Source: Phyto melanocephala (lineage: Eukaryota > Arthropoda > Insecta > Diptera > Rhinophoridae). Taken from it: DNA of 64,000 bases. The DNA is taken from positions 71,203,578-71,267,577 of the forward strand of contig OW799233.1 in NCBI GenBank assembly GCA_941918925.1. The letters run 5' to 3'. A program made the translations under genes and the position numbers. Below are positions 5,516-61,231 of this stretch, one piece after another. How positions within the stretch are numbered: position 1 is the stretch's first letter; each line of letters starts with the position of its first letter. The notes below the pieces were generated by a model. That model had not been told where the DNA came from. It made no database searches and saw only the letters and a list, made by a program, of their open reading frames with translations.

Positions 5516-7192
5516 TATACCCTTCACACAGTGAACAAGTAAGAGCGCTATATTCGGCCGTGCCGAATCTTATATACCCTTCACAACGTGTAGTCATGAA
5601 ATAACAGTAGTTTGTGTCACCATTCATCCCATATGAAATACGTACATACATATATAAAAACATCCCATTGTAAAATTCACGTATGTATGTTAAAAAAACG
5701 AAAAAAAAAAAATTAAAAAAAAAAAATTAAAAAAAAAAAATTAAAAAAAAATAAAAAATAAAAATTTAAAAAAAAATTTAAAAAAAATTTAAAAAAAAAA
5801 ATTTATATATAATTATAATTATTATATTTAAAACAAAAAAATAAAAAAAAAAATAAAAAAAAAATTAAAAAAAAAATAATAATAAAAATATAAATAATAT
5901 ATTAAATAAAAAATAAAAAAAAAATAAAAAAAAAATTTTTTTTGGCTCAGCTGGGATTTGATGCCACGTTTTCTCTAACCAGTATACACGTTTGTATGTA
6001 TGTATGTTGTTGTTGTAATGTTGTTTTTTTGAAAAAAAAATCGAGGTGGTCGTGGGTTTTTGCTCATATCTCAGTTGTTTATGTACCGATGTTTCTGATT
6101 TTCAATACCGATCTACTCCCGAATATTTCTGATATTTTAATACCTTACCCGGGTCCAACCTATGTCGGGGGGCTTCAAAAAGTTGATTTCAACATACACA
6201 CGGACAGACGGACAGACTGACAGACTGACAGACTGACAGGGCTTAATCGACTCCCCTATTCATAAGCTTTCAGAAAATATATACTTTATGGGGTCGGAAA
6301 TCAAAATTGTAGAAATTTCACACGGAATGACAAACCTATATATACCCTTTTTCACTGTGTGAAGGGTATATATAGGTTTGTCATTCCGTGTGAAATTTCT
6401 ACAATTTTGATTTCCGACCCCATAAAGTATATATTTTCTGAAAGCTTATGAATAGGGGAGTCGATTAAGCGCTGTCAGTCTGTCCGTCTGTCCGTCTGAC
6501 CGTCTGTCCGTGTGTATGTTGAAATCAACTTTTTGAAGCCCCCCGACATCGCTTGGACTCGGGTGAGGTATTAAAATATCAGAAATATTCGGGAGTAGAT
6601 CGCTATTGAAAATCAGAAACATCGGTACATAAACAACTGAGATATGAGCAAAAACCCACGACCACCTCGATTTTTTTTTTCACAAAAGCAACATTACAAC
6701 AACAACATACATACATACAAACGTGTATACTGGTTAGAGAAAACGTGGCATCGAATCCCAGCTGAGTCAAAAAAATTTTTTTTTTAATTTTTATTTTTTT
6801 TTTTTTTTATTTTTTTTTTTTTTTATTTTTTATTTAATATATTATTTATATTTTTATTATTTTTTTTTAATTTTTTTTTTTTAATTTTTTTTTATTTTTT
6901 TTTGTTTTGTATATATTATATACATAATAATTTTTTAAAAAATTTTTTTTTTTAAAAATTTTTTTTTTTTTAAATTTTTTTTTTAATTTTTTTTTTTTTT
7001 TTGTTTTTTTTTAACATTCATACGTGAATTTATAATTTTACTATGGGACGTTTTTATATATGTATGTTTTTATATGTATGTACGTATTTCATATGGGATG
7101 AATGGTGACACAAACCACTGTTATTGCATGAATTCACGTTGTGAAGGGTATATAAGATTCGGCACGGCCGAATATAGCGCTCTTACTTGTTT
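5516..7192. mobile_element. Two family A copies in head-to-head inversion, inside a third 5' stub
   Basis: 5516-5533 is the 5' terminus of a plus-strand copy (TTATACCCTTCACACAGTG). From 5534 a minus-strand copy begins at its 3' end (ACAAGTAAGAGCGC, hairpin TTCGGCCGTGCCGAA) and runs to its 5' end near 6357. A plus-strand copy then continues from AAGGGTATATATAGG to its 3' end at about 7192. The arms are each about 0.8 kb and meet at CACTGTGTG. The simplest reading is that the minus copy inserted into the 5' hairpin loop of the plus copy. Confidence 0.7.
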
Positions 7193-27995: not shown

Positions 27996-28109
27996 GAAGA
28001 TTTTATACTTTAAGTTTATTGAATTGTATTTTAAACTTTTATTTTGTATTAGTTGAGCTTGAGGTCAAACAAATAAGTAAAAAAAAGTCTTTGTTTTTTT
28101 TTTTTTTTT

Positions 28110-28157
28110 CAATTTTCGATATTTCGCCTGCCATCGGTTGGCATCATCAGGAAACTT
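28110..28157 (-). ncRNA. Hammerhead ribozyme motif, Penelope-like element 1
   Basis: Minus strand: CTGATGA core at the start, stem II GCC...GGC, then GAAA, a minimal stem III (AUAU), C at the cleavage position, and stem I formed by AAGTTTC and GAAAATT with one mismatch. This is the layout of minimal type I hammerheads reported in Penelope-like retroelements. One extra base sits between CTGATGA and stem II. Confidence 0.65.
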
Positions 28158-30230: not shown

Positions 30231-30974
30231 TCTATATATATAAAAGTGAAACTCTGTGTGTGTGTGTGTGTTAGCTATAGACTCCGAAACTGTAAAACCG
30301 ATTGGGCTCAATCTTTGGTAAGTTGTTGTACACATACCAGGGAGTGTTTATGGGTCGAAAAAACTGGGCGGGGCCACGCCCATCAAAATAAGTTATCAGT
30401 TTTAGCTACTTGCACTTGACCGATTTTTCTGAAACTTTGCACACATATCGAGCTATCATGACTTAATAGTTTTGTGATAAGAAAAGTGGGCGGGGCCACG
30501 CCCCTAAAAAAGTTTTAATTTTGAGGTACTTGCACTGGACCGATTTTTCTGAAACTTTGCACACATACTAAGCTGTCATAACCATATAAATTCGCGATTA
30601 GAAAAGTGGGCAGGGCCGCGCCCATAAAAAAAGGTTATAATTTTGATGTACTTGCACCAGACCGATTTTTTTGAAACTATGCACACATATCGAGCTGTCA
30701 TGACTAAATAATCTCGTGATTAGAAAAGTTGGCAGTGCCACGCCCATAAAAAATATGAACCATTTTGAGGTACTTGCACTGGACAGATTATTCTGAAACT
30801 TTGCACACATATCGAGCTGCCATGACTAAATAATTTCGTGATTAGAAAAGTGGACAATGCCACGCCCATAAAAAAAATTATAATTTTTAGGTTTTTGCAC
30901 TTGATATTCAATTAAAATTCAGAATGCATTTCCATTCATTAAGGGGCGTAGCAACGCGCGCCGGGATTGGCTAG
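30231..30974 (+). mobile_element. Non-autonomous Helitron, 744 bp
   Basis: It begins TCTATATATATAAAAGTG after A (30230) and ends GGCGTAGCAACGCGCGCC, GGGATTGG, CTAG, followed by T (30975). TC...CTRR termini, insertion between A and T, and the GC-rich palindrome near the 3' end are Helitron hallmarks. Inside, about five copies of a ~120-bp unit repeat (motifs GTGGGCGGGGCCACGCCC and CTGAAACTTTGCACACATA). A short TG microsatellite follows the 5' end. No Rep/helicase gene. Confidence 0.9.
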
Positions 30975-37074: not shown

Positions 37075-37198
37075 CACGGCTTTCAGACTAGGCAAGTCAC
37101 TTGCGCAAGTGACTTGCGCAAGTGTTGTGTTTATAGCACGGCTTTCAGACTAGGCAAGTCACTTGCGCAAGTGACTTGCGCAAGTGTTGTGTTTATAG
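37075..37198. repeat. 62-bp direct tandem doublet with 18-bp palindromes
   Basis: Units 37075-37136 and 37137-37198 look identical. Each holds the perfect palindrome GTCACTTGCGCAAGTGAC and a further CTTGCGCAAG. Confidence 0.85.
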
Positions 37199-38019: not shown

Positions 38020-39330
38020 TCTATTTATATATATAAAATTCACGTGTCACAGTGTTTGTCACCAAACTCCTCCGAAACGGCTGAACCGATTTCAGTGAAA
38101 TTTTGCATACACATTCTATAGGTCTGAGAATAGATTTATAACTATTTTTAATATTCCTTAATGAAGTGGGCGTGGCACATCGCATACAAAGTGAATTTTA
38201 ACATCATATATCTTGATTACTATGAAAGGGAGAGCTTCAAAAATTCGTGCGACATCATTTGTTGTTACTATTTGTAGCCGTACCGAAAATGGGCAGAATC
38301 GCATAAGTGGGCGTGGTAGCTGCGATACAAAGTGAATTTTTAATATCATATATCTTGAAAACTATCACAGGGAAAGCTTTTTAAATTTATGCGAGGCCTT
38401 CTATTATTGTGAGTAGCCATGCCGCAAATGGGCAGGATCGGATAAGTGGGCGTGGTAGCTCCCATACAAAGTGAATTTTTAACATCATATATCTTGAGTA
38501 CTATCACAGGGAGATCTTTTTGAATTTGCGCGGTACCACCCGTGCAAACTTTGCACACATATTAAGCTGTCATGACTTTATAATTTCCTGATTAGAAAAG
38601 TGGGCGGGACCACGCCCATAAAAAAGTTATAATCTTGAGGTACTTTCACTGGACCGATTTTTCTGAAACTTTGCACACATATTGAGCTGTCATGACTATA
38701 TAATTTGGTGATTAGAAAAGTGGGCAGGGGCACGCCTATAAAAAAAGTTATAATTTTGAGGTTCCTGCACTGTACCAATTTTTCTGAAATTTTGAACACA
38801 TATTGAGCTGTCATGACTTAACACTTTCGTGATAAGAAAGGTGGGCAGTGCCACGCCCTTAAAAAAAAGTTATCATTTTCAGCTACTTGAACTTCACCAA
38901 TTTTTCTGAAACTTTGCGCACATATTGAGCTCTCATGATTATACAATTTCGTGATTAGAAAAGTGGGCAGTGTCACGCCCATGAGAAATATGTTATCATT
39001 TTTAGCTACTTGCACTAGATCGATTTTTCTGAAACTGTGCACACATATTGAGTTGTCATGAGTATACATTTTCTTGATTAGAAAAGTAGCAGTGTCACGC
39101 CCATAAAAAAAGTTATTATTTTCAGCTACTTGAACTTCACCGATTTTTCTGAAACTTTGCACACATATTGAGCTGTCATGAGTATACAGTTTCGTTATTA
39201 GAAAAGCTGGCAGTGCCTCGCCCATTAAAGAAATTATAATTTTTAGCTTTTTGCACTTGATATTCAATTAAAATTCAGAATGCATTTTTCTTCATTAAGG
39301 GGCGTAGCAACGCGCGCCGGGCTTTTCTAG
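38020..39330 (+). mobile_element. Non-autonomous Helitron with two kinds of internal repeat
   Basis: TC start (TCTATTTATATATATAAAA) after A at 38019; CTAG end at 39327-39330 followed by T, with GGCGTAGCAACGCGCGCC just before. The first half (38160-38535) has about three ~130-bp units with GTGGGCGTGG and CATCATATATCTTGA; the second half (38545-39240) has about six ~120-bp units with CTGAAACTTTGCACACATA, like those of the Helitron at 30231. It looks like a fusion of two Helitron lineages. A second copy is at 40598-41908. Confidence 0.88.
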
Positions 39331-39766: not shown

Positions 39767-42344
39767 GTGTTTATAGGCAAAAGGGGTAAGGTCGGGTTAA
39801 GAGGAAGAAACTTGCTCATTTTTGAGTACACACTTGCCTGTACTCGGCAAGTACGAGCAAGTTTTTGTTGAGAAACCAAAAACAAAAGAGTAATAAAAAC
39901 AAACAAGAGTGCTATATTCGGCCATGCCGAATCTTATAAACCCTTCACAACGTGTTGTCATGCAACAACAATTGTTTATGTCACCATTTATCTCATATGA
40001 AATACGTACATACAAAACATACATATATAAAAACATCCCATTGTAATATTATACATTTAGTTTACTTATGTGCTTAAAAAAAAATAAATTAAAAGAAAAA
40101 TTAAAAATAAAACAATAAAAATTTGAATAAAATATAAAATAAAAAAATTTTTTGGCTCACTCTAACCAGTATACCACGTTTGTATGTATGTGTAGATAAT
40201 TGATAATTGTAGAAATTTCAAACGGAATGACAAACCTATATATACCCTTTTTCACTGTGTGAAGAGTGTAATAAGTAAAAGAGAACGAAACTTGGGCAAG
40301 TCAGTTGCTGAGTCTGAACATGAAAGCAAGTTCAAAGAAAAATAAAAGAAAATAAAAAACTAACTTGAGCAAGTGACTTGCCTGGTCAGAAAGGGGTGTT
40401 ACAGCACATTTTTTGATTTTTTTAAATATACTGAGTGCAACATCTTTATAGTCTATAGTCGCTACAAAGCACTTATCCAGTCGACATGTTTTGATTTTGC
40501 AGTTAGAATTGCATTTTCCTAGTTTTTAATTGCTTGATTGAAGATATTAAAAAACTTTGTTGTTTGCTTTATTTTGTTTTGCTGTTATTTTTGTACATCT
40601 ATTTATATATATAAAATTCACGTGTCACAGTGTTTGTCACCAAACTCCTCCGAAACGGCTGAACCGATTTCAGTGAAATTTTGCATACACATTCTATAGG
40701 TCTGAGAATAGATTTATAACTATTTTTAATATTCCTTAATGAAGTGGGCGTGGCACATCGCATACAAAGTGAATTTTAACATCATATATCTTGATTACTA
40801 TGAAAGGGAGAGCTTCAAAAATTCGTGCGACATCATTTGTTGTTACTATTTGTAGCCGTACCGAAAATGGGCAGAATCGCATAAGTGGGCGTGGTAGCTG
40901 CGATACAAAGTGAATTTTTAATATCATATATCTTGAAAACTATCACAGGGAAAGCTTTTTAAATTTATGCGAGGCCTTCTATTATTGTGAGTAGCCATGC
41001 CGCAAATGGGCAGGATCGGATAAGTGGGCGTGGTAGCTCCCATACAAAGTGAATTTTTAACATCATATATCTTGAGTACTATCACAGGGAGATCTTTTTG
41101 AATTTGCGCGGTACCACCCGTGCAAACTTTGCACACATATTAAGCTGTCATGACTTTATAATTTCCTGATTAGAAAAGTGGGCGGGACCACGCCCATAAA
41201 AAAGTTATAATCTTGAGGTACTTTCACTGGACCGATTTTTCTGAAACTTTGCACACATATTGAGCTGTCATGACTATATAATTTGGTGATTAGAAAAGTG
41301 GGCAGGGGCACGCCTATAAAAAAAGTTATAATTTTGAGGTTCCTGCACTGTACCAATTTTTCTGAAATTTTGAACACATATTGAGCTGTCATGACTTAAC
41401 ACTTTCGTGATAAGAAAGGTGGGCAGTGCCACGCCCTTAAAAAAAAGTTATCATTTTCAGCTACTTGAACTTCACCAATTTTTCTGAAACTTTGCGCACA
41501 TATTGAGCTCTCATGATTATACAATTTCGTGATTAGAAAAGTGGGCAGTGTCACGCCCATGAGAAATATGTTATCATTTTTAGCTACTTGCACTAGATCG
41601 ATTTTTCTGAAACTGTGCACACATATTGAGTTGTCATGAGTATACATTTTCTTGATTAGAAAAGTAGCAGTGTCACGCCCATAAAAAAAGTTATTATTTT
41701 CAGCTACTTGAACTTCACCGATTTTTCTGAAACTTTGCACACATATTGAGCTGTCATGAGTATACAGTTTCGTTATTAGAAAAGCTGGCAGTGCCTCGCC
41801 CATTAAAGAAATTATAATTTTTAGCTTTTTGCACTTGATATTCAATTAAAATTCAGAATGCATTTTTCTTCATTAAGGGGCGTAGCAACGCGCGCCGGGC
41901 TTTTCTAGTACAAGTATAACAAGTAAGAGCACTATATTCGGCTGTGCCGAATCTTTCATACCCACCACCAATTTTATGTACATTTAAAGCACAATATTTA
42001 TTATTTTGTTAATCGCTATAGAATAATCTCTTTATAATAAAATATGTATCACTTTCTTTGTAGAGGGTGGTTAATTTTTAAGGGCCCATGTTTAAGGTGA
42101 ACCACATCTAAACTTCAACTTTTTTCTTGTATTTCATTTGACATTTCTCAATCTCAGACTAACTCAATTTGAACCGTGAAAAGATACGCAATCGAGAAAC
42201 GCTTTTAAATATTAAAGATTTTTATAAAAATGGGCGTTCAAATCAAAATGCATTTTGTGCACTTCGTGATTCTTTTGGTCAACATAATCGTTCGAATTCC
42301 TCCACAATCGTGAGAATTGTAAAAAATATTTAAATGTCTGCAAA
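39767..42344. repeat. Unit 2 of the 2,578-bp tandem duplication
   Basis: Identical by eye to 37189-39766. The junction TGCAAA/GTGTTTAT shares only a single G of homology with the outer breakpoints, so the duplication is not explained by recombination between repeats. It holds Helitron copy 40598-41908 and family A copy 39901-40266. Confidence 0.9.
40598..41908 (+). mobile_element. Second copy of the two-part Helitron
   Basis: Duplicate of 38020-39330 created by the tandem duplication, not by a separate transposition, since flanks are duplicated too. Confidence 0.88.
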
Positions 42345-46545: not shown

Positions 46546-48092
46546 AATGTTAAAAAGTTTATTCATTTCAAAATAAATTAAATAATAATATTGGTAAAGT
46601 AATAAGTTGTTTTTTTTATAAAACAATTGAAATAAAAACAAACTATGTATGTATTTTTGTTAAGAATAAATAATTTTTTATGTTTTTCCCACTTCATTAA
46701 TTTCTGCCATCAAAAAGTGTTCAATAACAATTAACAATGTTGTTATACTTTAATAAATTACATCATTCGTTTGCTAAATTTTGTATTTTTTTTTCTTGGA
46801 ACTTAATCATCATGTGCTTTCGGAGGAGTAGTAATAGTAGAAAGTCCAAAACTTATATTCTGTGTTGTAAACAAGCGTCGGCAAACCACTGCGGAGTCAA
46901 GTGTTTACATGACTCAATAATAAAAGATTTTATACCAATTTTTTGGGGCTCAGATTTAAAAATTTTATGAAATATTAAAATATGTCTTTTACTATCATCC
47001 ATTAGTTTATCTGATGGAGCAGCTAAGCTTCCAAAATCTGTAAGCGACTGATAATTTTTAAAGTGTATAAAAAGCTCGCTTGGTGCTGTTAGAACTTCAT
47101 CCGTCTTTCTCAATTCGTCACAACATTTTTTGCATTGTAATTTTGGAATGACTTTAAATGCTACATATCCAACAAAGTATCTCATAGAAACTACTTCGAA
47201 ATTTATAACTGCAGAATTTTCAAAAACATCTTCCAGAAAATAATCTGCATATATGTGGCTCTCGAAATCAACATTGTCAATTTCATAGCAACTTGGTTCT
47301 TTATGTTCAATACATAAATCTGCTTGAAAGCCAGCATCAACATTATTCTTGCCCCCTTTCTGCCGCAATACAGAAAACGTGTTTTCTAATTTGTCCTGAT
47401 TAAGGGATTTTGCCATTAAAAAATATACCACCTTCTTTTAAAATATCATCGGTTAACATAAGAACTGATTTAAGAGTGAGCTTCATTCCATTTAAAAAGA
47501 AAACACGCTTCTTTTTATCCAAAAACTCCACATTTTCTAAATATTGCAAAAAAAATTTATAAATTTATATGATTCACTGTTAAGCTGAATTGCAGATCTG
47601 TAGCAGTTATCACCATAAAGGGAGCCACTATTAAGACAATTGAAAATCTTGTCAATTTTTTCCACAAACTGAGCTGTTAATAAGGCCAATTTTGTGGAAT
47701 TTATCTGTAATTTTGTGGTTTAAGAAATAGTTTTGATAGCAGCCGCAACAGTTCTGCTGAAAATTTGTGTTGCAAATTTTACACACATTTTTTCAAAACA
47801 GTTAGGGTAAATGTGTTGCCGTGTCAATTTTGGGCACATTTTTGTTTTTGCACTTGCTTCCATTTCACACAATTCCTTAATTACTTGAAAATTTACCGTT
47901 CCATCCGGTGATTTTATGTCACACTTTAACCAGCCATTCCGCAAAGACTTAATTAAATGGGGGAAATAGTACATGCAAAAAACTTTCTGATCATTAGTTT
48001 CAAAAGACGGCTTTTCCACAGATACTCTAAGGTTGGAAAAACATTTTCTGTTGGTCGAGCCTTGATCACATACAAGGGCACGAACGTTTATA

Positions 48093-48525
48093 CACAGAAA
48101 AAACTAAATATGGATTTTAATTACGAAATTAATATTATTAATTAAAAAATTGTTTAATTTTGCTCCAATCATCAAAATGATACTATTAATTAAATGAAAA
48201 TTTATAGTTTCAATTGAAAAAATATGGAGAAAAATATTTAATTGATATTTTATTATTAGTATTAAAAAATTAATTAAAATTTTCAATAAATTTCAAAAAT
48301 GATTTTAATTAATTTAATCATGTCTTTATTTGAGATTTGGGTTTTATAATATTAAATCATTTATTATATCAATAATATAATTTATTAAACCTGTATAAAA
48401 AAATACAAAAAAAAAATATTTTTTTTTTATATATATTTATTCTTAATATACATTTATATTACAAAGGAATCCATATTTTTAATTATATTTCGTTACTTAT
48501 GTATATCTATATATATAAAAGTGAA

Positions 48526-48570
<45 letters not shown>

Positions 48571-49952
48571 GCTATAGACTCCGAAACTGTAAAACCGATC
48601 GGGCTCAAACTTTGGTAAGTTGTTGTACACATACCAGGGAGTGTTTATGGGTAAAAAAAAGTGGGCGGAGCCACGCCCATAAAAAATTAGTTATCAGTTT
48701 TAGCTACTTGCACTTGACCGATTTTTCTGAAACTTTGCACACATATCGAGCTGTCATGACTAAATAATTTCGTGATAAGAAAAGTGGGCGGGGCCACGCC
48801 CCTAAAAAAGTTTTAATTTTGAGGTACTTTCACTGGACCGATTTTTCTGAAACCTTGCACACATATTGAGTTGTCATGACTTTGTAATTTCGTGATTGAA
48901 AAAGTGGGCGGGGTCACGCCCATAAAAAATTAGTTATCAGTTTTAGCTACTTGCACTAGACCGAATTTTCTGAAACTTTGCAAACATACTGAGCTGTCAT
49001 GACTTTGCACTTTCGTCATTAGAAAAGTGGGCAGTGCCACGCCCATTAAAAAAAGGTATCATTTTGAGGTACTTGCACTAGACCGATTTTTTTGAAACTT
49101 TGCACACTTATTGAGCTGTCATGACTATACAGTTTTGTAATTAGAAAAGTGGGCAGTGCCACGCCCATAAAAAAAGGTATCATTTTGAGGTACTTACACT
49201 TGACCGATTTTTCTGAAACTTTGCACACTTATTGAGTTGTCATGACTATACAGTTTCGTAATTAGAAAAGTGGGCAGTGCCACGCTCATAAAGAAAAAGT
49301 TTTTAGCCTTGCACTTGATATTCGATTAAAATTTAGAACGCGATTAAAATTCATGAAGGGGCGTAGCAACGCGCGCCGGGATTGGCTAGTGTATAATAAA
49401 ATTAATAATAAGAACACACATACACATACTATACCATATCAAAAGCCGGATTTCCAAAAATAATTTTTAGCATCAACGACCTAAAAAGGTCTTGATCAGG
49501 CAGAGTGAAGAAAATCAACTAACTTACCTGTTAAAATGATAATTCTGAGGAATATAAAGGAACACAATAAATATGTAATGAATTTTGGCATACCTACAAT
49601 GAAACCGAAACCATTTATTATATTTAAAGCAGAACATATTGTTATATATGTACGTATGTGCACTTACCAGAGCTTTCTCTTGCAGATTGGCGACAATTTT
49701 TCATTATTTCGCTCCTTGAGTAACAATTATATTAAATTTATTCTTAAAATTAAATTTTCAAGTAAATGTCATTTAAAATAATATATTTTATTTTTTTAAA
49801 TTTTTTTCAACTGACAGAAATCTCTTTGTTTTTTGAAAATATTTAATATCAATTAAAAAATTTAATTAAAGTAATGAAAAATATAATTAGAATTCAAAAA
49901 CAAATTAAAAATTCAATTAATTAAACAAATTTTAGCAATATTTTTTTCTGTG
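48093..49952. mobile_element. MITE with CACAG...CTGTG ends inserted in the P-like transposase
   Basis: Starts CACAGAAAAAACTAAATATG, ends TATTTTTTTCTGTG, with TA on both sides (48091-48092, 49953-49954). Removing it and one TA restores the transposase frame across the junction, which proves the boundaries and a 2-bp TA duplication. TA duplication suggests a Tc1/mariner-type source. It contains the Helitron 48506-49389. Confidence 0.85.
48506..49389 (+). mobile_element. Non-autonomous Helitron inside the MITE
   Basis: TCTATATATATAAAAGTG start after A (48505), CTAG end (49386-49389) before T, with GGCGTAGCAACGCGCGCC upstream of the end. About six ~120-bp internal units (GTGGGCGGGGCCACGCCC; CTGAAACTTTGCACACTTA). 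A (TG)n microsatellite spans about 48529-48568. The empty site is preserved in the paralogous MITE at about 45955. Confidence 0.9.
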
Positions 49953-51000
49953 TACCCATGCTTTTTAAAATATTATAATTTTCTTTAACTATTTCACTTA
50001 AAGTATCCGCAGATAAGCCGTTGTAGGAAATAAAGAATTTAAGAATGATTGAAAAATTAGAAAACATAGATTTAATCATAAAAACAGATACATGAGTGGC
50101 AATTCTATTAGTCCTTTCAAATCCAGTTGTTTCAAATCCATCAACTAAATCTAGACTTCTATTATACATCAACTCTTTTTTATGTTCATTTCATCCATAA
50201 CTAAAATCATATGCTTAGCACATCTGTCATCCAACTGGGAGCATTTTTCCCTCACGAATTTGAAAGCATTATTTTTTAAGCCGGGCTGAACAAATTTATT
50301 CGGCACCCACCGATTCAAGGTGGAAATGTGAGGAAGACTCAAATTTAATTTGTCCCTTAGAAATAAGTATGTGGATTGAGATTTGTAAAAAATGTTCTGA
50401 GCTAAATATTTTACATTTTCAGAATATTCCTTTGGCCGAGAGCTCAACAAAAGCTTACAAAAAATTTCGCTTTCTGCGCTTATATTTTGTAAACAATCAG
50501 TCGATTCAATAAGAGACTTTTTTATATTATTTATTACGATTTAACTTTTTAGTATGTTGTGTGGGTCGCTTTGATTTTAAATTTTTTTCTTTTTTGTATT
50601 TTTTGAGGAGATTACTATATTTTTTCCGGTAGTGATCTGCAAGTAGAGTTTGATTTTCGCAATTTGAGCAGAAAGCGGCTTCGATATTTTCGCAATATAA
50701 ATTTTTTGGGGAGGACCTGAGCTCTGCGTTAAAATCTTCCAATTCTTCCTCCATTTCATCAATATATACAGTTGGAATGGCGTCAGCTTTTAATTTTGTT
50801 CCTCCAACGTATGAACTTGAAAAATGATTTTCGCAAATATAAAGATTTTTATTAAAATTCTTCTCTGGAATTCGACATTTCTCTCGCCAAATTTGACCTA
50901 GTATCATATCCGGCGAAGGAAATTTAAACATTTTTAAGCCCTTAAAATGTCTTCTCGATTTTTGGCATTTTTTTACGCAGCATTTTATGCCCGATGGCGA

Positions 51001-52236: not shown

Positions 52237-52548
52237 ACAAGAGCGCTATATTCGGTTGTGCCGAATCTTATATACCCTTCACAACGTGTAGTCATGCAAT
52301 AACAGTGGTTTGTGTCACCATTCATCCCATATGAAATACGTACATACATATAAAATACATACATATATAAAAACATCCCATTGTAAAATTATAAATTTAC
52401 GTATGTATGTTAAAAAAAAAAAATAAAAAAAATAATTTAAAAAAAAATTTTTAAAAAATAATAAAAATATATATAATAAATATAAAACAAAAAAAAAAAA
52501 TAAAAAAAAAAATATTAAAAAAAAAAATTAAAAAAAATATATAAAAAT
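52237..52548 (-). repeat. Family A 3' half, minus
   Basis: ACAAGAGCGC and hairpin TTCGGTTGTGCCGAA, then the 3' subterminal region and A-rich tract. It abuts a fragment of the 550-bp hammerhead repeat. Confidence 0.7.
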
Positions 52549-52556
52549 TAAATTTT

Positions 52557-52806
52557 TAATGTGAACCATTTTTTATTTTGGCTTAAGTTCATTTGTTTCT
52601 TTATTTAATTTTTTTATAATTCAAATTAAATTAAATTGTAACCATTTTAGGAATATTTTTTCTAAAAATTATTTCCGATATTAGCCGAGTGGAATGCATT
52701 TTCGAAATCAGCTACGATTTCATCATCAGCACTCTTTATCGGTATACTACTATGTAACTTAAAATTCCTATTTATGTTACAATTGAATGAAATTTGAATT
52801 AGTGAA
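52557..52806 (-). repeat. Detached fragment of the 550-bp hammerhead repeat
   Basis: About 250 bp matching 54860-55110 and the inverse of 58612-58865, including a complete hammerhead motif (52675-52742). It lies outside the TTAA palindrome. Confidence 0.85.
52675..52742 (-). ncRNA. Hammerhead ribozyme motif (550-bp repeat family)
   Basis: Same 68-nt sequence as the copies at 54981, 58676, 59226 and 59776: stem I CCGATA/TATCGG and GAGTG/CACTC, core CTGATGA, stem II GAAATC/GATTTC, GAA, palindromic stem III AATGCATT, cleavage after UUC. Confidence 0.75.
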
Positions 52807-52984
52807 AAGTCTAGGCAATATTTATTAAAATAAATAAATAAAATTAAAATAAAAAATTATAAAAATGTTTACTTAATTTTTTTAGTAGTTTATGGCCAGA
52901 AGTCTGGAGTTATTGGGGAAAATTTATAAAAAAGGCGATAAATTACACTTTTTTGAATAAAAACAAATATCAATATTCTTGTCA

Positions 52985-53490
52985 AAATGGGATACCTTCA
53001 CTTAATTGTAAATAAAAGCAGAACGCGTTAATCGATTTCTATGATCTATGTCGCATTTTGTTTATAGGTTATGTGACTTCACATGAAATTAAAAACACTT
53101 GATCCTTTTTTCCATTTTGGATTTTTTATGAATTAAAAAAAAAAAAAATATTTAAATTTTTAGACAAAAAATACTTTTTTCCCTTCATACATTCATTTTT
53201 AACTTCGAAAGTGTTGCACATATAGGAAAACGGTATAGAAACAGATTAGAGAAATTGTAATTCTTAATTTTTCTAAATTTGTGTCATCAAAATCGGACGA
53301 GTGGTTCTCGAGTTATGTTAAACTACGTTTTTGCCAAAATGTTACAACTAAGCGAAAAAACATCAAGATAAGGAAAAAATTTAAAATGTCATAAAAAAAA
53401 GTGACACATATGAACGCCAAACCCTTTGAGGGTTTTACTATACTAACCTAGTACCATCACCCTGACTTGGAATTTCTCACCCCCAGATAT
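52985..53490 (+). repeat. Diverged terminal-repeat-like copy related to the CACAG transposon
   Basis: Matches the right terminal repeat of the 55356-58547 element over CATTTTGGATTTTTTATG, CCCTTCATACATTCATTTTT and ATTGTAATTCTTAATTTTT, then continues with its own end (AAACCCTTTGAGGGTTTTAC, TAGTACCATCACCCTGACTT). A second copy of the end part in the same direction is at 61232-61475. It probably represents a sister transposon family. Confidence 0.6.
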
Positions 53491-54365
53491 AGATAATAAA
53501 TTTTAATGCTTGTGTATTAAGTTGTTTAGATTTTTGCTTCTCAATCACACAAATAACGGCTGAAGGGTACTAACTGAAATTTGGCACACCTAGATTAACA
53601 CCAAGAATAATAAAAACAATATTAAAAAATGTTTCGTTCTGCGTATACACGTCACATCAGCCTTGCACTTAACAAAAGTAATACAAGTACAGTGAGGTTT
53701 ATTTAAATTATTAAAGGTGAATAAAAGCATTATAGTTTATTTTAAAGTATATTATTGAACATATTACTGCTTATAATGTTATTTACCGTTTAAAATTATT
53801 TTTTTTATTATTATTATTTCTTAAATATTTATTTTAGCATTTTATTAACAATCTTGGATTAATATGTGTGCAGACGAAGTCGAGGGCACATGCTGTTATA
53901 TATAAAATTTTTGTAAAAAATTATAATAAATGATTTTTTTTTTGAATTTACATCGAACTCCCCTGCAGGAAATGTCTGTATTAAAAAAGTACTGATTTAG
54001 TATCTACTCTGTCACCAGTACTAATGGCCAATTATACCCTAGATAATGTTATTTGCTATAGATATTCAAAATGCACTTAACATTGAAAATCCACTAGTGA
54101 AGTTAGAACCAGTGTTTGAAAAACTGCAGTCGAAATAGTAAAAGTCGTAAAATTGTGCTATTACTTCGACTTAACAGTTTTTCATTGGGCAAACACAAAC
54201 TGTTGCTTCACTTCTACTTCTTAAACGACTAACAATCGCAGTTAAAGCACAAACAAAAAACACTACAAGAACTTCTGCAATCGACAAGATCGAACAGTTT
54301 TTGGCAGCATTGAAAAACTTCTTATTCGTTTGATTGCTTTTGCTTCTGCTTAGGTTTCTGATTTT

Positions 54366-54810
54366 TATACCCTTCACACAGTGAAAAAGTTTATATATAG
54401 GTTTGTCATTCCGTGTGAAATTTCTACAATTTTGATTTCCGACCCCATAAAGTACATATTTTCTGAAAGCTTATGAATAGGGGAGTCGATTAAGCCCTGT
54501 CAGTCTATCCGTGTGTTTGTTGAAATCAACTTTTTGAAGCCCCCCGACATCGCTTGGACTCGGGTGAGGTATTAAAATATCAGAAATATTCGGGAGTAGA
54601 TCGGTATTGAAAATCAGAAACATCGGTATTGAAAATCAGAAACATCGGTACATAAACAACTGAGATATGAACATAAACCCCCGACCACCTCGATTTTTTT
54701 TTTCACAAAAACAAAATTACTACAACAACATACATACATACAAACGTGTATACTGGTTAGAGAAAACGTGGCATCGAATCCCAGCTGAGCCAAAAAAAAA
54801 GATTTTTTTT
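54366..54810 (+). repeat. Family A 5' half in left palindrome arm
   Basis: TTATACCCTTCACACAGTG through CGAATCCCAGCTGAGCC, with one internal duplication of AATCAGAAACATCGGTA. The mirrored copy at 60025-60468 carries the same duplication, so the arms were copied after this insertion. Confidence 0.75.
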
Positions 54811-54835
54811 ATTATTTTTATATTTATATTTTATT

Positions 54836-55258
54836 CGAACTTTTTTCTATATATTAAATTTTTAATGTGAACCATTTTTTATTTTGGCTTAAGTTCATTT
54901 GTTTCTTTATTTAATTTTTTTATAATTCAAATTAAATTAAATTGTAACCATTTTAGGAATATTTTTTCTAAAAATTATTTCCGATATTAGCCGAGTGGAA
55001 TGCATTTTCGAAATCAGCTACGATTTCATCATCAGCACTCTTTATCGGTATACTACTATGTAACTTAAAATTCCTATTTATGTTACAATTGAATGAAATT
55101 TGAATTAGTGAATCTTAGTATTAATTTTCATATTTTGTTGAATATTTTATTTCACCTATCAAATGACAATTCATAATTCAACATGTTCATATTCTTCTAT
55201 ATTCGTAATACATTTTTTGTTATGCTTTCAATATCCATCCTTTGGCTGGAATTATTGA
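54836..55258 (-). repeat. Hammerhead repeat part-unit in left arm
   Basis: Inverse of the 550-bp unit, meeting the plus-oriented array at a short spacer (55259-55267) so that CCTTTGGCTGGAATTATTG and its inverse face each other. Confidence 0.85.
54981..55048 (-). ncRNA. Hammerhead ribozyme motif (550-bp repeat family)
   Basis: Minus-strand copy of the 68-nt motif with all core residues and both parts of stem I intact. Confidence 0.78.
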
Positions 55259-55355
55259 AAACAATTATTTTCAATAATTCCAGCCAAAGGATGGATATTG
55301 AAAGCATAACAAAAAATGTATTACGAATATAGAAGAATATGAACATGTTGAATTA

Positions 55356-58300
55356 CACAGTACAACATTTTTCAGTTAATTGATTGCCAACTCAATTCTG
55401 TGAACTGTATGTGAAATTAGACCCAAAAAGAAGAATTTCTGCATCATTCGTTTTGTCTTCTTACCTGCGATTTGAAGTTAGTATCGATTTGAAGTTAGTA
55501 CTATCGTAAAGGGGAATTTATCACGTTTTAGGCCCTGTTGTTTGACATAGCTCGACAACCACTAGCCCAATTTAGTTGAAATAAATTTTAAAAAATTAAA
55601 AATTACAATTCCCTTAATCTGTTCATATATTGTTTTCCTATACAAGTAACACTTTCGAAGTTAAAAATGAATGTATGAAGGGGAAAAATTATTTTTTGCC
55701 TAAAAATTTAAATTTTTTTTTTTTAAATACATAAAAAATCCAAAATGGAAAAAAGTTTCAAGTCTAGTTATTCTTTCGCAAAGTCACATAACCTATGAGC
55801 AAAATGAGACAAAGATCATAAAAATCGATGCACGCGTTTCGCTTTTATTCGCAATTGAGTAAATGTATGAATTTCAAAAATCAGTTATAGCCACCACCCT
55901 TAAAATAAAAATATAAATTAAAAAATTATCATGCAAAAAAAAATTTATTTATAAAAACTTAATGAAAATAAAATAATATGCAATTAATACGCAATTATAA
56001 TATGCATAAAAACAAAATTTAGAACATTTTTTCAATTATTGGCAATATCCATCCTTGTAGAAGTTGACGCTTGTGGTTCTGATGATCTTGTTTTCTTCGT
56101 AGGTTGTTCATATTCATGGTCTGAGTCTGTATCGTCATCCGAGATACACATACTATTCAAGGGCGTGTTTCTTTCACTGTGTCCACCAATTTCAATGTCT
56201 TCATCTTCGGTGCTTTCTTCAAACTGCATAATTGTGGAACTCCACCAACAAACCTCCGCAAGCAATGCATCCAATTTTTTGCTTTTGAACCGCTTTTCAA
56301 ATGGCATGGTCACCTGGTGGAACCTCTCTCCTTGTTCGTCTGATTCCTGAGGTGATTGTGCCAAAAAAGTATCGAGGTGGTGGTGCAAGAAATGCAATTT
56401 CAGCGTCATGGATGCACCGATTTTTTCGAAATAAAACAGCAACCTGTCCACTCGTTGCTGTATCTCTTCTCGCTGGACACGGTTCTTTTCTAGAACGCCT
56501 TCTATTACTTCTTTCAATGCGTTCCATGCATGTTGGTGGTCGTGATGCTCTGAAAGCAAATGTGTGAAAGAATCACTTTTGATCAATTTCCGAATATCAG
56601 GTCCATTGAGAATACCTCTTTTAAATACATAAGAAAAACGTAAAATTATTGGTAATGTGAATGTATAGAAATTAACAAATTTAGATATGACAATATTGAA
56701 ATACAGAGTACGATACGTACCGTTTTTAATTTTCTCATCACTGAGTTTCGGAAAGATGGATTTCAAACAGTCAAAGGCGCCGTTAACTTTTTTGACCACC
56801 ACTTCAACGAATTTCCCAGCTATTCCCAGTTTCATGTGGAGCGGTGGCAACAAAATATCATCCAGGTCCTTTATCATAGGTTCAACGGAATAAAATTTCT
56901 GAAAATCAGCTTGGCGTTGTCGGTATGATGTTGCGCTGACATTTTGCTGTGTGAGTTTTCTTCTCTTCAAAAATGATGTCAGCCATTCGGAGTCGTGTTG
57001 TGATAGTCCCAGCTTGGCCACAATGTAATCCATTTCGATTTGTGGTAGCGGTTGTGGTGCACTATTTTCAATATCTGGTATCCAATCAGCATCATCCAAA
57101 TCGGTCGGATTGGTGAAAACGGTTGCGGCTAGCAGGGACACAGTATCCGCACTCGGAGGTTTAGGTGCATCGGTATCAGCAGGGCGTTGCACTGGAAGTG
57201 TGGCAGTAAATGCAGCAGTGTATACTTTTGTTTTCCATTGTTGTCTGTTTAATCCAGGACAAAAATTTATGCATGCATAGCACCTGGATTCATCATGTCC
57301 AGTTGTGTCTTCCACCCAAATTACTGGCTTCATAAAAGATAACTTTCTACTTTTTCCGTGAATCCATTTTAGAAGGGTAGTATAACAACTGTTGCACACT
57401 GTGTTCGGCGTAAAATTTGCACCACTTAAATCTGCTTCATCGAAATAATTACAATACGCGGTTTTGAATTGCTCAGTAAACAAATTTTTTCGATCTTTTT
57501 TCTGTATTTTTTGGACGATATGACCACAAACGTAACAATATTCATCCAAATATGGGCACTTGTTGTTTTCCATATTGATATATTTTATGTTTTGTTGTTA
57601 TTCACTTTTAAAAAACTGGAGAAAAATCACTTTTACTGTTCGCGTTCGTCGGCACTGGCTGAATGCCAAAAATCGATCAATGCACACCTATAAATACTAC
57701 GTATTTTTGAATATTTTACTGCCAGGCATTTATAAATGGGCGCATATTTTAAGGGCGGCTGGCTATATACCTGATTCAGCACTTGTACGTTTCAAACTGT
57801 GCAAAACTTTCAAAATAATGACCACCCTTAAATGTGGGTGCAATTTCTGTAAACAAATCATATAGGTAGCCACCGGAAAAACCAAAATAATAAAAAGGTC
57901 CACTTTCCGTTTAATTGTCCACGTACATTTATTACCGCAATCATAAAAATCAAATAACCTTTTGTTTATTCCTTTTTTTTTAATTCTCAGAATCATGAAA
58001 AAGGTGTCAATGTTTTCTCCAAATAATGTTGTGCATATCTCGAGCAAATTTTTGAAATTCATACATTTACTCAATTGCGAATAAAAGCGAAACGCGTGCA
58101 TCGATTTTTATGATCTTTGTCTCATTTTGCTCACAGGTTATGTGACTTTTTGAAAAAATAACTAGACTTGAAACTTTTTTCCATTTTGGATTTTTTATGT
58201 ATTTTTAAAAAAAAAATTTTAAATTTTTAGGCATAAAATAATTTTTTCCCTTCATACATTCATTTTTAACTTCGAAAGTGTTACTTGTATAGGAAAACAA

Positions 58301-58547
58301 TATATGAACAGATTAAGGGAATTGTAATTCTTAATTTTTTAAAATTTATTTCAACTAAATTGGGCTAGGGGTTGTCGAGCTATGTCAAACAACAAGGCCT
58401 AAAACGTGATAAATTCCCCTATACGATAGTACTAACTTCAAATCGCAGGTAAGAAGACAAAACGAATGATGCAGAAATTCTTCTTTTTGGGTCTAATTTC
58501 ACATACAGTTAACAGAATTGAGTTGGCAAATCATGTGTTGTACTGTG
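55356..58547 (-). mobile_element. 3.19-kb CACAG/CTGTG DNA transposon with long terminal repeats
   Basis: Ends CACAGTACAACA and TGTTGTACTGTG; terminal inverted repeats of about 510-530 bp (55356-55888, 58040-58547), the left one with an 18-bp internal duplication (GATTTGAAGTTAGTATC). TTA flanks both ends (55353-55355, 58548-58550). The uninterrupted target AATTATGAATTG is present in the neighbouring repeat unit at about 59097, which fixes the boundaries. CAC-type ends and a 3-bp duplication suggest the CMC group (EnSpm/Chapaev3-like); TTA alone would also fit Harbinger. Confidence 0.88.
56032..57573 (-). CDS. Transposase-family protein of the CACAG element, central region missing
   Basis: 513 codons, ATG at 57573. 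Cysteine-rich N-terminus (C6, C13, C16, C41, C60, C63, C98, C101, C105; e.g. CYVCGH, CNSCY, CYAC) suggests zinc binding. Residues 178-230 (LGLSQHDSEWLTSFLKRR) and then LLPPLHMKLG (241-250), GPDIRKLI, LKLHFLHHHLD and ESDEQGERFHQ (about 415-425) match a protein family common in arthropod and cnidarian genomes and probably transposon-derived (from memory). The family normally has roughly 150-190 residues between YRQRQADFQKFYS and the LPPLH motif; here they are absent, so the putative catalytic core is deleted in frame. 56616-56720 (GTACGT...AAGAG, 105 nt) is a likely intron without stops; splicing gives KNGILNGPDIRKL and a 478-residue product. The acidic tail (DEDIEIG, DDDTDSDHEYE) is low-complexity. 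Confidence 0.75.
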   Translation of the reverse strand: MENNKCPYLDEYCYVCGHIVQKIQKKDRKNLFTEQFKTAYCNYFDEADLSGANFTPNTVCNSCYTTLLKWIHGKSRKLSFMKPVIWVEDTTGHDESRCYACINFCPGLNRQQWKTKVYTAAFTATLPVQRPADTDAPKPPSADTVSLLAATVFTNPTDLDDADWIPDIENSAPQPLPQIEMDYIVAKLGLSQHDSEWLTSFLKRRKLTQQNVSATSYRQRQADFQKFYSVEPMIKDLDDILLPPLHMKLGIAGKFVEVVVKKVNGAFDCLKSIFPKLSDEKIKNGTYRTLYFNIVISKFVNFYTFTLPIILRFSYVFKRGILNGPDIRKLIKSDSFTHLLSEHHDHQHAWNALKEVIEGVLEKNRVQREEIQQRVDRLLFYFEKIGASMTLKLHFLHHHLDTFLAQSPQESDEQGERFHQVTMPFEKRFKSKKLDALLAEVCWWSSTIMQFEESTEDEDIEIGGHSERNTPLNSMCISDDDTDSDHEYEQPTKKTRSSEPQASTSTRMDIANN

Positions 58548-58675
58548 TTATGAATTGTCATTTGATAGGTGAAATAAAATATTCAACAAAATATGAAAAT
58601 TAATACTAAGATTCACTAATTCAAATTTCATTCAATTGTAACATAAATAGGAATTTTAAGTTACATAGAAGTATA

Positions 58676-58743
58676 CCGATAAAGAGTGCTGATGATGAAA
58701 TCGTAGCTGATTTCGAAAATGCATTCCACTCGGCTAATATCGG
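58676..58743 (+). ncRNA. Hammerhead ribozyme motif, array unit 1
   Basis: Parsed 5' to 3': CCGATA, AA, GAGTG, CTGATGA, T, GAAATC, loop GTAGCT, GATTTC, GAA, AATGCATT, C, CACTC, GGCTAA, TATCGG. Stem I has an internal loop, as needed for the loop-loop contact of fast natural hammerheads. Stem III is a loopless palindrome, so activity would require a dimeric or tandem transcript. The one departure is an extra T between the core and stem II. Confidence 0.8.
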
Positions 58744-59225
58744 AAATAATTTTTAGAAAAAATATTCCTAAAATGGTTACAATTTAATTTAATTTGAATT
58801 ATAAAAAAATTAAATAAAGAAACAAATGAACTTAAGCCAAAATAAAAAATGGTTCACATTAAAAATTTAATATATAGAAAAAAGTTCGAATAAAATATAA
58901 ATATATAATTATAACACACATGGCACGGTGTTAATGACATTCAAGAATTCATTGTTCAGTGTCTATCACCTAGATGGACTTATATATAAATGAAAATGTA
59001 AATACAACCTTGTTTTCAATAATTCCAGCCAAAGGATGGATATTGAAAGCATAACAAAAAATGTATTACGAATATAGAAGAATATGAACATGTTGAATTA
59101 TGAATTGTCATTTGATAGGTGAAATAAAATATTCAACAAAATATGAAAATTAATACTAAGATTCACTAATTCAAATTTCATTCAATTGTAACATAAATAG
59201 GAATTTTAAGTTACATAGTAGTATA

Positions 59226-59293
59226 CCGATAAAGAGTGCTGATGATGAAATCGTAGCTGATTTCGAAAATGCATTCCACTCGGCTAATATCGG
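59226..59293 (+). ncRNA. Hammerhead ribozyme motif, array unit 2
   Basis: Identical to the unit 1 motif, exactly 550 bp downstream. Confidence 0.8.
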
Positions 59294-59775
59294 AAATAAT
59301 TTTTAGAAAAAATATTCCTAAAATGGTTACAATTTAATTTAATTTGAATTATAAAAAAATTAAATAAAGAAACAAATGAACTTAAGCCAAAATAAAAAAT
59401 GGTTCACATTAAAAATTTAATATATAGAAAAAAGTTCGAATAAAATATAAATATATAATTATAACACACATGGCACGGTGTTAATGACATTCAAGAATTC
59501 ATTGTTCAGTGTCTATCACCTAGATGGACTTATATATAAATGAAAATGTAAATACAACCTTGTTTTCAATAATTCCAGCCAAAGGATGGATATTGAAAGC
59601 ATAACAAAAAATGTATTACGAATATAGAAGAATATGAACATGTTGAATTATGAATTGTCATTTGATAGGTGAAATAAAATATTCAACAAAATATGAAAAT
59701 TAATACTAAGATTCACTAATTCAAATTTCATTCAATTGTAACATAAATAGGAATTTTAAGTTACATAGTAGTATA

Positions 59776-59843
59776 CCGATAAAGAGTGCTGATGATGAAA
59801 TCGTAGCTGATTTCGAAAATGCATTCCACTCGGCTAATATCGG
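59776..59843 (+). ncRNA. Hammerhead ribozyme motif, array unit 3
   Basis: Identical to the unit 1 motif, a further 550 bp downstream; mirror partner of 54981-55048 in the palindrome. Confidence 0.8.
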
Positions 59844-60024
59844 AAATAATTTTTAGAAAAAATATTCCTAAAATGGTTACAATTTAATTTAATTTGAATT
59901 ATAAAAAAATCAAATAAAGAAACAAATGAACTTAAGCCAAAATAAAAAATGGTTCACATTAAAAATTTAATATATAGAAAAAAGTTCGAATAAAGTATAA
60001 ATATATAAAATATAAAAATAATAA

Positions 60025-60468
60025 AAAAAATCTTTTTTTTTGGCTCAGCTGGGATTCGATGCCACGTTTTCTCTAACCAGTATACACGTTTGTATGTATG
60101 TATGTTGTTGTAGTAATTTTGTTTTTGTGAAAAAAAAAATCGAGGTGGTCGTGGGTTTATGTTCATATCTCAGTTGTTTATGTACCGATGTTTCTGATTT
60201 TCAATACCGATGTTTCTGATTTTCAATACCGATCTACTCCCGAATATTTCTGATATTTTAATACCTCACCCGAGTCCAAGCGATGTCGGGGGGCTTCAAA
60301 AAGTTGATTTCAACAAACACACGGATAGACTGACAGGGCTTAATCGACTCCCCTATTCATAAGCTTTCAGAAAATATGTACTTTATGGGGTCGGAAATCA
60401 AAATTGTAGAAATTTCACACGGAATGACAAACCTATATATACCCTTTTTCACTGTGTGAAGGGTATAA
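60025..60468 (-). repeat. Family A 5' half in right palindrome arm
   Basis: Mirror of 54366-54810, ending TTTTTCACTGTGTGAAGGG at its 5' terminus. Confidence 0.75.
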
Positions 60469-61231
60469 AAATCAGAAACCTAAGCAGAAGCAAAAGCAAT
60501 CAAACGAATAAGAAGTTTTTCAATGCTGCCAAAAACTGTTCGATCTTGTCGATTGCAGAAGTTCTTGTAGTGTTTTTTGTTTGTGCTTTAACTGCGATTG
60601 TTAGTCGTTTAAGAAGTAGAAGTGAAGCAACAGTTTGTGTTTGCCCAATGAAAAACTGTTAAGTCGAAGTAATAGCACAATTTTACGACTTTTACTATTT
60701 CGACTGCAGTTTTTCAAACACTGGTTCTAACTTCACTAGTGGATTTTCAATGTTAAGTGCATTTTGAATATCTATAGCAAATAACATTATCTAGGGTATA
60801 ATTGGCCATTAGTACTGGTGACAGAGTAGATACTAAATCAGTACTTTTTTAATACAGACATTTCCTGCAGGGGAGTTCGATGTAAATTCAAAAAAAAAAT
60901 CATTTATTATAATTTTTTACAAAAATTTTATATATAACAGCATGTGCCCTCGACTTCGTCTGCACACATATTAATCCAAGATTGTTAATAAAATGCTAAA
61001 ATAAATATTTAAGAAATAATAATAATAAAAAAAATAATTTTAAACGGTAAATAACATTATAAGCAGTAATATGTTCAATAATATACTTTAAAATAAACTA
61101 TAATGCTTTTATTCACCTTTAATAATTTAAATAAACCTCACTGTACTTGTATTACTTTTGTTAAGTGCAAGGCTGATGTGACGTGTATACGCAGAACGAA
61201 ACATTTTTTAATTAATGCGTGAACGCATTAA

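Follow-up and report, generated by a model that had tools for sequence, protein, structure and literature searches.

A non-coding hammerhead repeat of the fly Phyto melanocephala is probably a retrozyme-like mobile RNA copied by a Penelope-type enzyme

How does a short repeat that carries a ribozyme and no enzyme of its own come to be inserted at many sites of an insect genome? The question is raised by a 64,000-nt stretch of the rhinophorid fly Phyto melanocephala (GenBank assembly GCA_941918925.1, contig OW799233.1, positions 71,203,578 to 71,267,577, forward strand), hereafter called the window, whose last fifth contains five identical copies of a 68-nt hammerhead motif. An earlier note on this DNA had proposed a retrozyme-like circular RNA system made up of tandem 550-bp units, a reading that has since gained dispersed copies with target duplications (16 of 16 loci) and a start-site and inverted layout of the Penelope type. 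With a probability of roughly 0.7, we take the repeat to be a non-coding, retrozyme-like mobile RNA that is cut by its hammerhead, is probably circular and is copied by a Penelope-type enzyme off both strands of the target. This reading is based on a combination of features seen in the DNA: every unit contains a hammerhead, and the dispersed copies have duplicated targets, outward-pointing 3' ends, two types of outer end (X and Y) and inner junctions specific to each locus. By "retrozyme-like" we mean an element that, judged by its sequence, has the build of an animal retrozyme and the insertion mode of a Penelope element but lacks an enzyme of its own, and whose RNA would be circular.

In the sense orientation, the motif reads CCGATA-AA-GAGTG / CTGATGA-T / GAAATC-GTAGCT-GATTTC / GAA / AATGCATT-C / CACTC-GGCTAA-TATCGG. 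It comprises a hammerhead core with an NUH site, inner and outer parts of stem I flanking an 8-nt internal loop, and a 6-bp stem II, with one U inserted after A9. Stems I and II pair perfectly, and stem III, whose strand is the self-complementary palindrome AATGCATT, has 2 bp within one copy and 8 bp between copies. The positions of the five motifs, the core, the two-part stem I, stem II, the uUC site, the palindrome and the extra U are all as the earlier note had described them. In addition, pairing is possible between GGCUA in the internal loop and UAGCU in loop II, as it is in 0.8% of random 6-nt loop pairs. A descriptor composed with the motif already known, which required CTGANGA, 0-1 extra nt, a stem II of ≥4 bp, GAAA, a stem III of ≥2 bp (loops down to 2 nt), UH and a stem I of ≥4 bp, returned exactly the five known copies on both strands of the 64 kb. 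On 100 dinucleotide shuffles it gave a single match with at most 12 helix pairs, as against 15 in the motif, three of which belong to stem III over a 2-nt loop and cannot all form within one copy; the five copies count as one event in this estimate. A further match at 28106-28150 failed the descriptor and was dropped as a hammerhead. The stricter pattern CTGATGA..GAAAC had no match in the window, and a pattern with the exact stem II had none in viral contigs or in genome contigs. A peptide from the reading frame of the hammerhead retrieved no relative, its single 13-residue match in viral contigs being judged a chance hit.

The unit that carries the motif has no stop-free stretch beyond 48 codons, and thus no long open reading frame (ORF) and no ORF for a reverse transcriptase (RT) or a GIY-YIG protein; a GIY-YIG pattern matched the window only once, in a frame that reads through stop codons, and was discarded. 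A genome-wide search for further units, as suggested in the earlier note, yielded at least 249 matches in the host assembly (739.75 Mb, nine contigs). Among the 39 stretches read (20 loci with flanks and 19 array centres), 34 consist of a (-) array followed by a (+) array (18 of 20 loci, 16 of 19 centres), so that the sense 3' side of both arrays points outward. Five stretches (two of the 20 and three of the 19) show a single orientation, and the reversed order was found in none of the 39. Full units measure 543-551 nt (n = 57), most commonly 543 nt (36/57); positions are numbered below either on a 543-nt unit from locus L036 (U) or on the 550-bp unit of the window (R).

The outer ends of the insertions follow a common plan. 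All 17 loci with both ends mapped have one X end (after GGTTCACATTAAAATTTAA) and one Y end (after TTCGAATAAAATATAAATATAT), and X may lie on either side of the insertion, with Y on the other. Typing was done by script in 14 of 16 loci, and by eye in L048, L049 and L039. X falls at U397-409 (mean 404.6, 14 loci) and Y at U439-445 (mean 441.6, 16 loci), a distance of 37 nt that lies within the 30-40 nt expected for the two adjacent RT start sites of a Penelope-type insertion. The two ends differ from each other and are ragged over about 7-13 nt, rather than being precise, identical termini, and a stem-loop, UAACAC-ACAUGGCACG-GUGUUA, is located just 3' of Y in the repeat RNA. The flanks, which are AT-rich and seemingly unrelated between loci, share 12-19 nt (mean 14) in 16 of 16 loci, indicating a target duplication, compared with a mean of 7.3 nt for mismatched flank pairings (n = 240), of which 10 reach 12 nt.

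The inner junctions differ in all 32 loci compared (16 by script and 16 read from centres; L047 was omitted, and L038, L039 and L051 were not resolved), frequently with an overlap of 1-3 nt. Fifteen of the 64 inner ends fall within U37-61, beside the unit-start hairpin (U2-42), a number reached in 0 of 2,000 uniform placements. Unit sequences private to one of the loci read recur across both arms of L034, L049 and L050 and are repeated inside one arm of L044 and L047. The 13 arms with at least two full units have a single unit length in 11 cases and are identical throughout in six; the mean within-arm difference, inflated by L047, is 6.3 and the median 2. One common unit sequence occurs in nine loci (19 units), which makes the private-unit test blunt for many loci. 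Locus L047 itself (G000:C5:47906000-47915999) is a long array that contains both 543-544-nt and 546-nt units, the two types differing at 14-19 positions, which could reflect a nested insertion or recombination between two lineages.

The Penelope-type reading derives from features reported for Penelope-like elements, whose reverse transcription is associated with a pair of adjacent start sites and a 30-40-nt tail, whose priming occurs on both strands of AT-rich targets and whose copies lie head to head. For an anole element, reverse transcription was described to start at two adjacent RNA sites within an AC-rich stem-loop, with a 30-40-bp tail corresponding to the stretch between them, while both strands of AT-rich targets are cut and extended (PMC11167929). 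In a rotifer, Penelope copies are reported to lie mostly head to head; one of the inverted repeats carries a tail, and the duplications measure 8-10 bp. The authors prefer self-priming on an antisense template, which would be another route to the same layout (PMC3846280). On our reading, transcripts of the fly repeat would undergo self-cleavage after C59276 and at the equivalent positions, probably using two copies that share the 8-bp stem III, and the ~550-nt monomers released would be closed into circles by a host ligase. A Penelope-type enzyme would cut both strands of AT-rich DNA ~13 bp apart, and both target 3' ends would be extended on a single RNA, from X in one case and from Y in the other. 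Every complementary DNA (cDNA) would then run round the circle, in many cases more than once, and would frequently end at the hairpin; the two cDNAs would be joined in the middle. A circular template would be expected to yield tandem arms. It is tempting to go one step further and to see in these insertions, as on balance we do, the footprints of an animal hammerhead circle moved by Penelope machinery, with twin priming on one small circle at two start sites and rolling cDNAs joined head to head.

Several observations weigh against this reading. The extra U after A9 and the uUC site with GAAAa depart from the usual hammerhead, and Rfam, a check of the kind proposed in the earlier note, gave no hammerhead at its gathering score, nor at E ≤ 10 within 52401-60100. 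(A search of the whole assembly with RF00163, which had no match, is uninformative because 14 control genomes gave none either.) For the 68-mer, a competing fold is lower in energy than the hammerhead fold (-16.9 versus -13.0), and the partition function of a trimer assigns 0.99 to stem II, 0.19-0.26 to stem I and 0.001 to the shared stem III. Stem III is weak within a copy, where the isolated hairpin has +4.4 kcal/mol, as against -6.5 kcal/mol when two copies form the 8-bp helix; the earlier proposal that cleavage needs a dimer would agree with these predicted energies and finds no echo in the trimer model. Only two of the 64 inner ends lie at the cleavage site (U266-267; L041 and L044; chance 0.024), the U37-61 cluster is uneven (4/32 ends in the first 16 loci, 11/32 in the second 16), the X end of L049 is broken by an A run, and at five of the 16 loci (L032, L035, L044, L049, L050) the duplication consists of simple or AT-repeat sequence and is weaker. 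Tandem copies could, moreover, also be derived from uncut multimeric RNA. Finally, the circle folds better than its own shuffles (30 each; z = -4.0 sense, -2.8 antisense), but 8 of 28 low-GC pieces of the window, and 30 of all 53 pieces, fold equally well; since low-GC pieces do so, whole-circle stability was dropped as evidence.

One alternative is that RNA read through a tandem array serves, as an uncut multimer, as the template of a Penelope-type enzyme, with the hammerhead inactive or irrelevant. The rival fold, the extra U, the weak stem III and the scarcity of inner ends at the cleavage site all fit such a scheme, as does the report that the anole element inserts in vitro without a need for hammerhead cleavage (PMC11167929). 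The presence of private units in both arms is what one small circle would leave, although a multimer from a uniform array would do the same. What makes this alternative unlikely in our view is the preservation of the ribozyme. In a sample of 113 pieces spanning the motif, from 21 loci including that of the window, the motif is perfect in 107, and its 13 variant columns were each seen once, with no variant having spread. Columns varying in at least two loci number 0 of 68 in the motif versus 53 of 482 elsewhere (Fisher 0.0014, relatedness ignored). This argument has its own limits: for columns varying in at least three loci, the difference (0/68 versus 20/482) is not significant (p = 0.16), the quiet block, R138-300, is broader than the motif, and 96 of 483 68-column windows also lack a shared variant. 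Compensatory change in the stems, a point raised in the earlier note, was not seen among the 113 pieces, where the few variants are private. One decayed copy (L034:6560-6880), with CTGATGG, no longer has the outer 5' strand of stem I; both changes in its stem II are retained as G-U pairs, a single case.

The flanks of the motif can also pair with each other, forming a rod of 30 pairs that lengthens stem I and has an energy of -27.2 kcal/mol with 60-nt flanks. Among 500 shuffles, 3 were as good at 40 nt, none at 60 or 80 nt, 1 at 100 nt and 2 at 150 nt. Of all 1,558 control positions, 35 were equally good, and among the 480 with a flank AT content of ≥0.74 there was one, located at the centre of a palindrome.

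A Foldback-type DNA transposon, moved by a transposase and carrying the hammerhead as a passenger within inverted arms of tandem repeats, would account for the inverted arms and the ~13-bp target duplications, yet it sits badly with X and Y ends that are ragged and unlike each other, with an inner junction that is distinct in 32 of 32 loci and with a junction cluster that adjoins an RNA hairpin, and we regard it as improbable. A conventional satellite that multiplied through exchange and duplication of DNA would suit the outer palindrome of the window (1,205 nt, 100%), a DNA duplication, and the two unit types in the L047 array, but the dispersed sites, with seemingly unrelated flanks and target duplications, already disfavour it and leave it hardly credible.

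The retrozyme-like, Penelope-copied RNA that we favour shares with metazoan non-long-terminal-repeat retrozymes (PMC7229834) a type I-like hammerhead in AT-rich, non-coding tandem repeats and target duplications of more than 4 bp (here 12-19 nt in 16 of 16 loci); a GC content below 50% and the lack of a long ORF are likewise retrozyme traits found here. The likeness drawn in the earlier note stands for the hammerhead and the tandem arrangement, whereas the units of 543-551 nt exceed the published ~170-400 nt. The extra U and the head-to-head X/Y arrays, known here from DNA, are further differences; the words 'inverted' and 'head-to-head' are absent from the main text of PMC7229834, where Penelope-like or other non-LTR enzymes are proposed as retrozyme mobilisers without direct evidence. 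With Penelope-like elements (PMC11167929, PMC3846280), the repeat has in common start sites 30-40 nt apart, a one-arm tail, head-to-head repeats, AT-rich targets and short duplications, as well as a hammerhead in the case of the element of PMC11167929. It differs from them in lacking an RT or endonuclease ORF in the unit, in its multi-unit arrays, in the possible loop-loop contact of its ribozyme and in duplications of ~13 rather than 8-10 bp (PMC3846280). L1 twin priming similarly involves two target strands that prime one RNA and inverted cDNAs joined inside, but is described for 18-22% of L1 insertions and linear RNA (PMC12016303), as opposed to 34 of 39 stretches and multimeric arms here.

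The ribozyme also has relatives in design. About 40% of hammerheads likely use a loop pseudoknot of this kind (PMC3088659), and the hammerheads of RNAs like that of hepatitis delta virus have a matching layout, with similar motifs in flies (PMC7936874). The latter share a 5-bp inner stem I, a 6-10-nt internal loop, a 6-bp stem II and a loop I-loop II pairing in the same place, but are of type III, whereas the fly motif has a type I layout, an extra U and a loopless stem III. The pDo500 satellite of cave crickets (PMC2837043) is, by its description, comparable as an insect repeat of ~500 bp with one hammerhead per unit, for which a double hammerhead was proposed; there, stems I and II are common to two copies, here stem III.

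We regard the window's own insertion as an element of the kind proposed here, which a 3,192-bp DNA transposon and an inverted duplication afterwards disrupted. It has its X left end at 52547 and its Y right end near 60000, with AAATATATAAAA bordering both, and is placed in an AT-rich tract between two other repeats; the inverted duplication takes in outside DNA. The tandem units of the earlier note accordingly need qualification: three copies of the motif are in tandem, while the one at 54981 belongs to an inverted arm and the one at 52675 to a 260-bp end fragment, and the interval 55268..60005 contains the transposon that splits unit 1 and makes up 67% of its 4,738 bp. All features are listed in the table.

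Table. Features of the element and its surroundings in the window.
Feature	Position	Strand	Remark
Complete unit R, 550 bp	59010..59559	+	24% GC
Tandem array	58548..60015	+	unit 1 in part (462 nt), unit 2, unit 3 in part (~450 nt)
Start of unit 1, truncated by transposon	55265..55355	+	TTA duplicated at 55353-55355 and 58548-58550
Inverted partial unit, R1-455	54809..55264	-	Y end; belongs to secondary inverted duplication
Left insertion end, 260-bp fragment, R153-412	52547..52806	-	X end; 100% identical to R
Candidate target duplication AAATATATAAAA, 12 nt	52535..52546	+	AT-rich
Candidate target duplication, second AAATATATAAAA copy	59999..60010	+	at Y end
Unit-start hairpin, approximate position	59011..59051	+	numbered on a sister unit of 543 nt; cluster of inner ends immediately 3'
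AC-rich stem-loop TAACAC-ACATGGCACG-GTGTTA	59462..59483	+	just 3' of Y site (R453)
Rod, 30 pairs of motif flanks	59167..59351	+	predicted extension of stem I
Hammerhead motif, unit 1	58676..58743	+	predicted cleavage after 58726
Hammerhead motif, unit 2	59226..59293	+	predicted cleavage after 59276
Hammerhead motif, unit 3	59776..59843	+	predicted cleavage after 59826
Hammerhead motif, inverted arm	54981..55048	-	predicted cleavage after 54998
Hammerhead motif, left end fragment	52675..52742	-	predicted cleavage after 52692
DNA transposon within unit 1	55356..58547	.	no part of ribozyme system
Outer palindrome arm	53621..54825	.	100% complementary to 60008-61212; secondary, extends outside element

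The transposon at 55356-58547 has a TTA duplication, and its inverted ends of ~500 bp start with CACAGTACAACA. At E ≤ 0.001, its ORF of 513 aa has 234 relatives; among the 120 listed, the few that are named come from insects and none has a precomputed Pfam domain. The ORF lacks an internal stretch found in P0001. The inverted duplication (53621-54825 and 60008-61212), perfect over 1,205 nt and reaching beyond the element, is either a recent rearrangement or an assembly product, and microRNA matches at 55224-55304 were rejected, as they correspond to the palindrome centre. A scan for tRNAs in the window gave none. A ~480-bp repeat at 54354-54835 and 60007-60479, with copies near 2201, 2757, 5905-6805, 12763 and 63798, terminates with GGCATCGAATCCCAGCTGAGCC and a tract rich in AT, behind which the repeat of 52239-52480 often lies; it is into such a tract that the ribozyme element has been inserted. 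Farther away, 46853-50931 (-) has a THAP domain (E 1.2e-08), together with a TNP-like RNase H match that falls just short of its cut-off, and is read as what is left of a P-element-type transposon (scan of 8 of the 20 ORFs listed). Arrays of a ~120-bp repeat (AAAAGTGGGCAG..CACGCCCATAAA) occupy 30360-30901, 38546-39261, 41124-41839 and 48657-49297, the blocks 38164-39261 and 40742-41839 resemble one duplicated block, and 37075-37198 consists of two perfect 62-bp copies carrying GCAAGTGACTTGC palindromes.

Collectively, the plan of two ends, a 37-nt tail and head-to-head arms, found at many sites, amounts to a footprint of the kind by which a hammerhead RNA is linked with Penelope-type priming. 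It illustrates the traces that a circular template may leave, and any genome that holds hammerhead repeats can be examined for it. With its pseudoknot, its extra U and a stem III formed mainly between copies, the ribozyme offers a clear case for tests of dimer-only cutting. If our reading is true, twin-primed rolling-circle insertion would be a signature by which other retrozymes could be tested.

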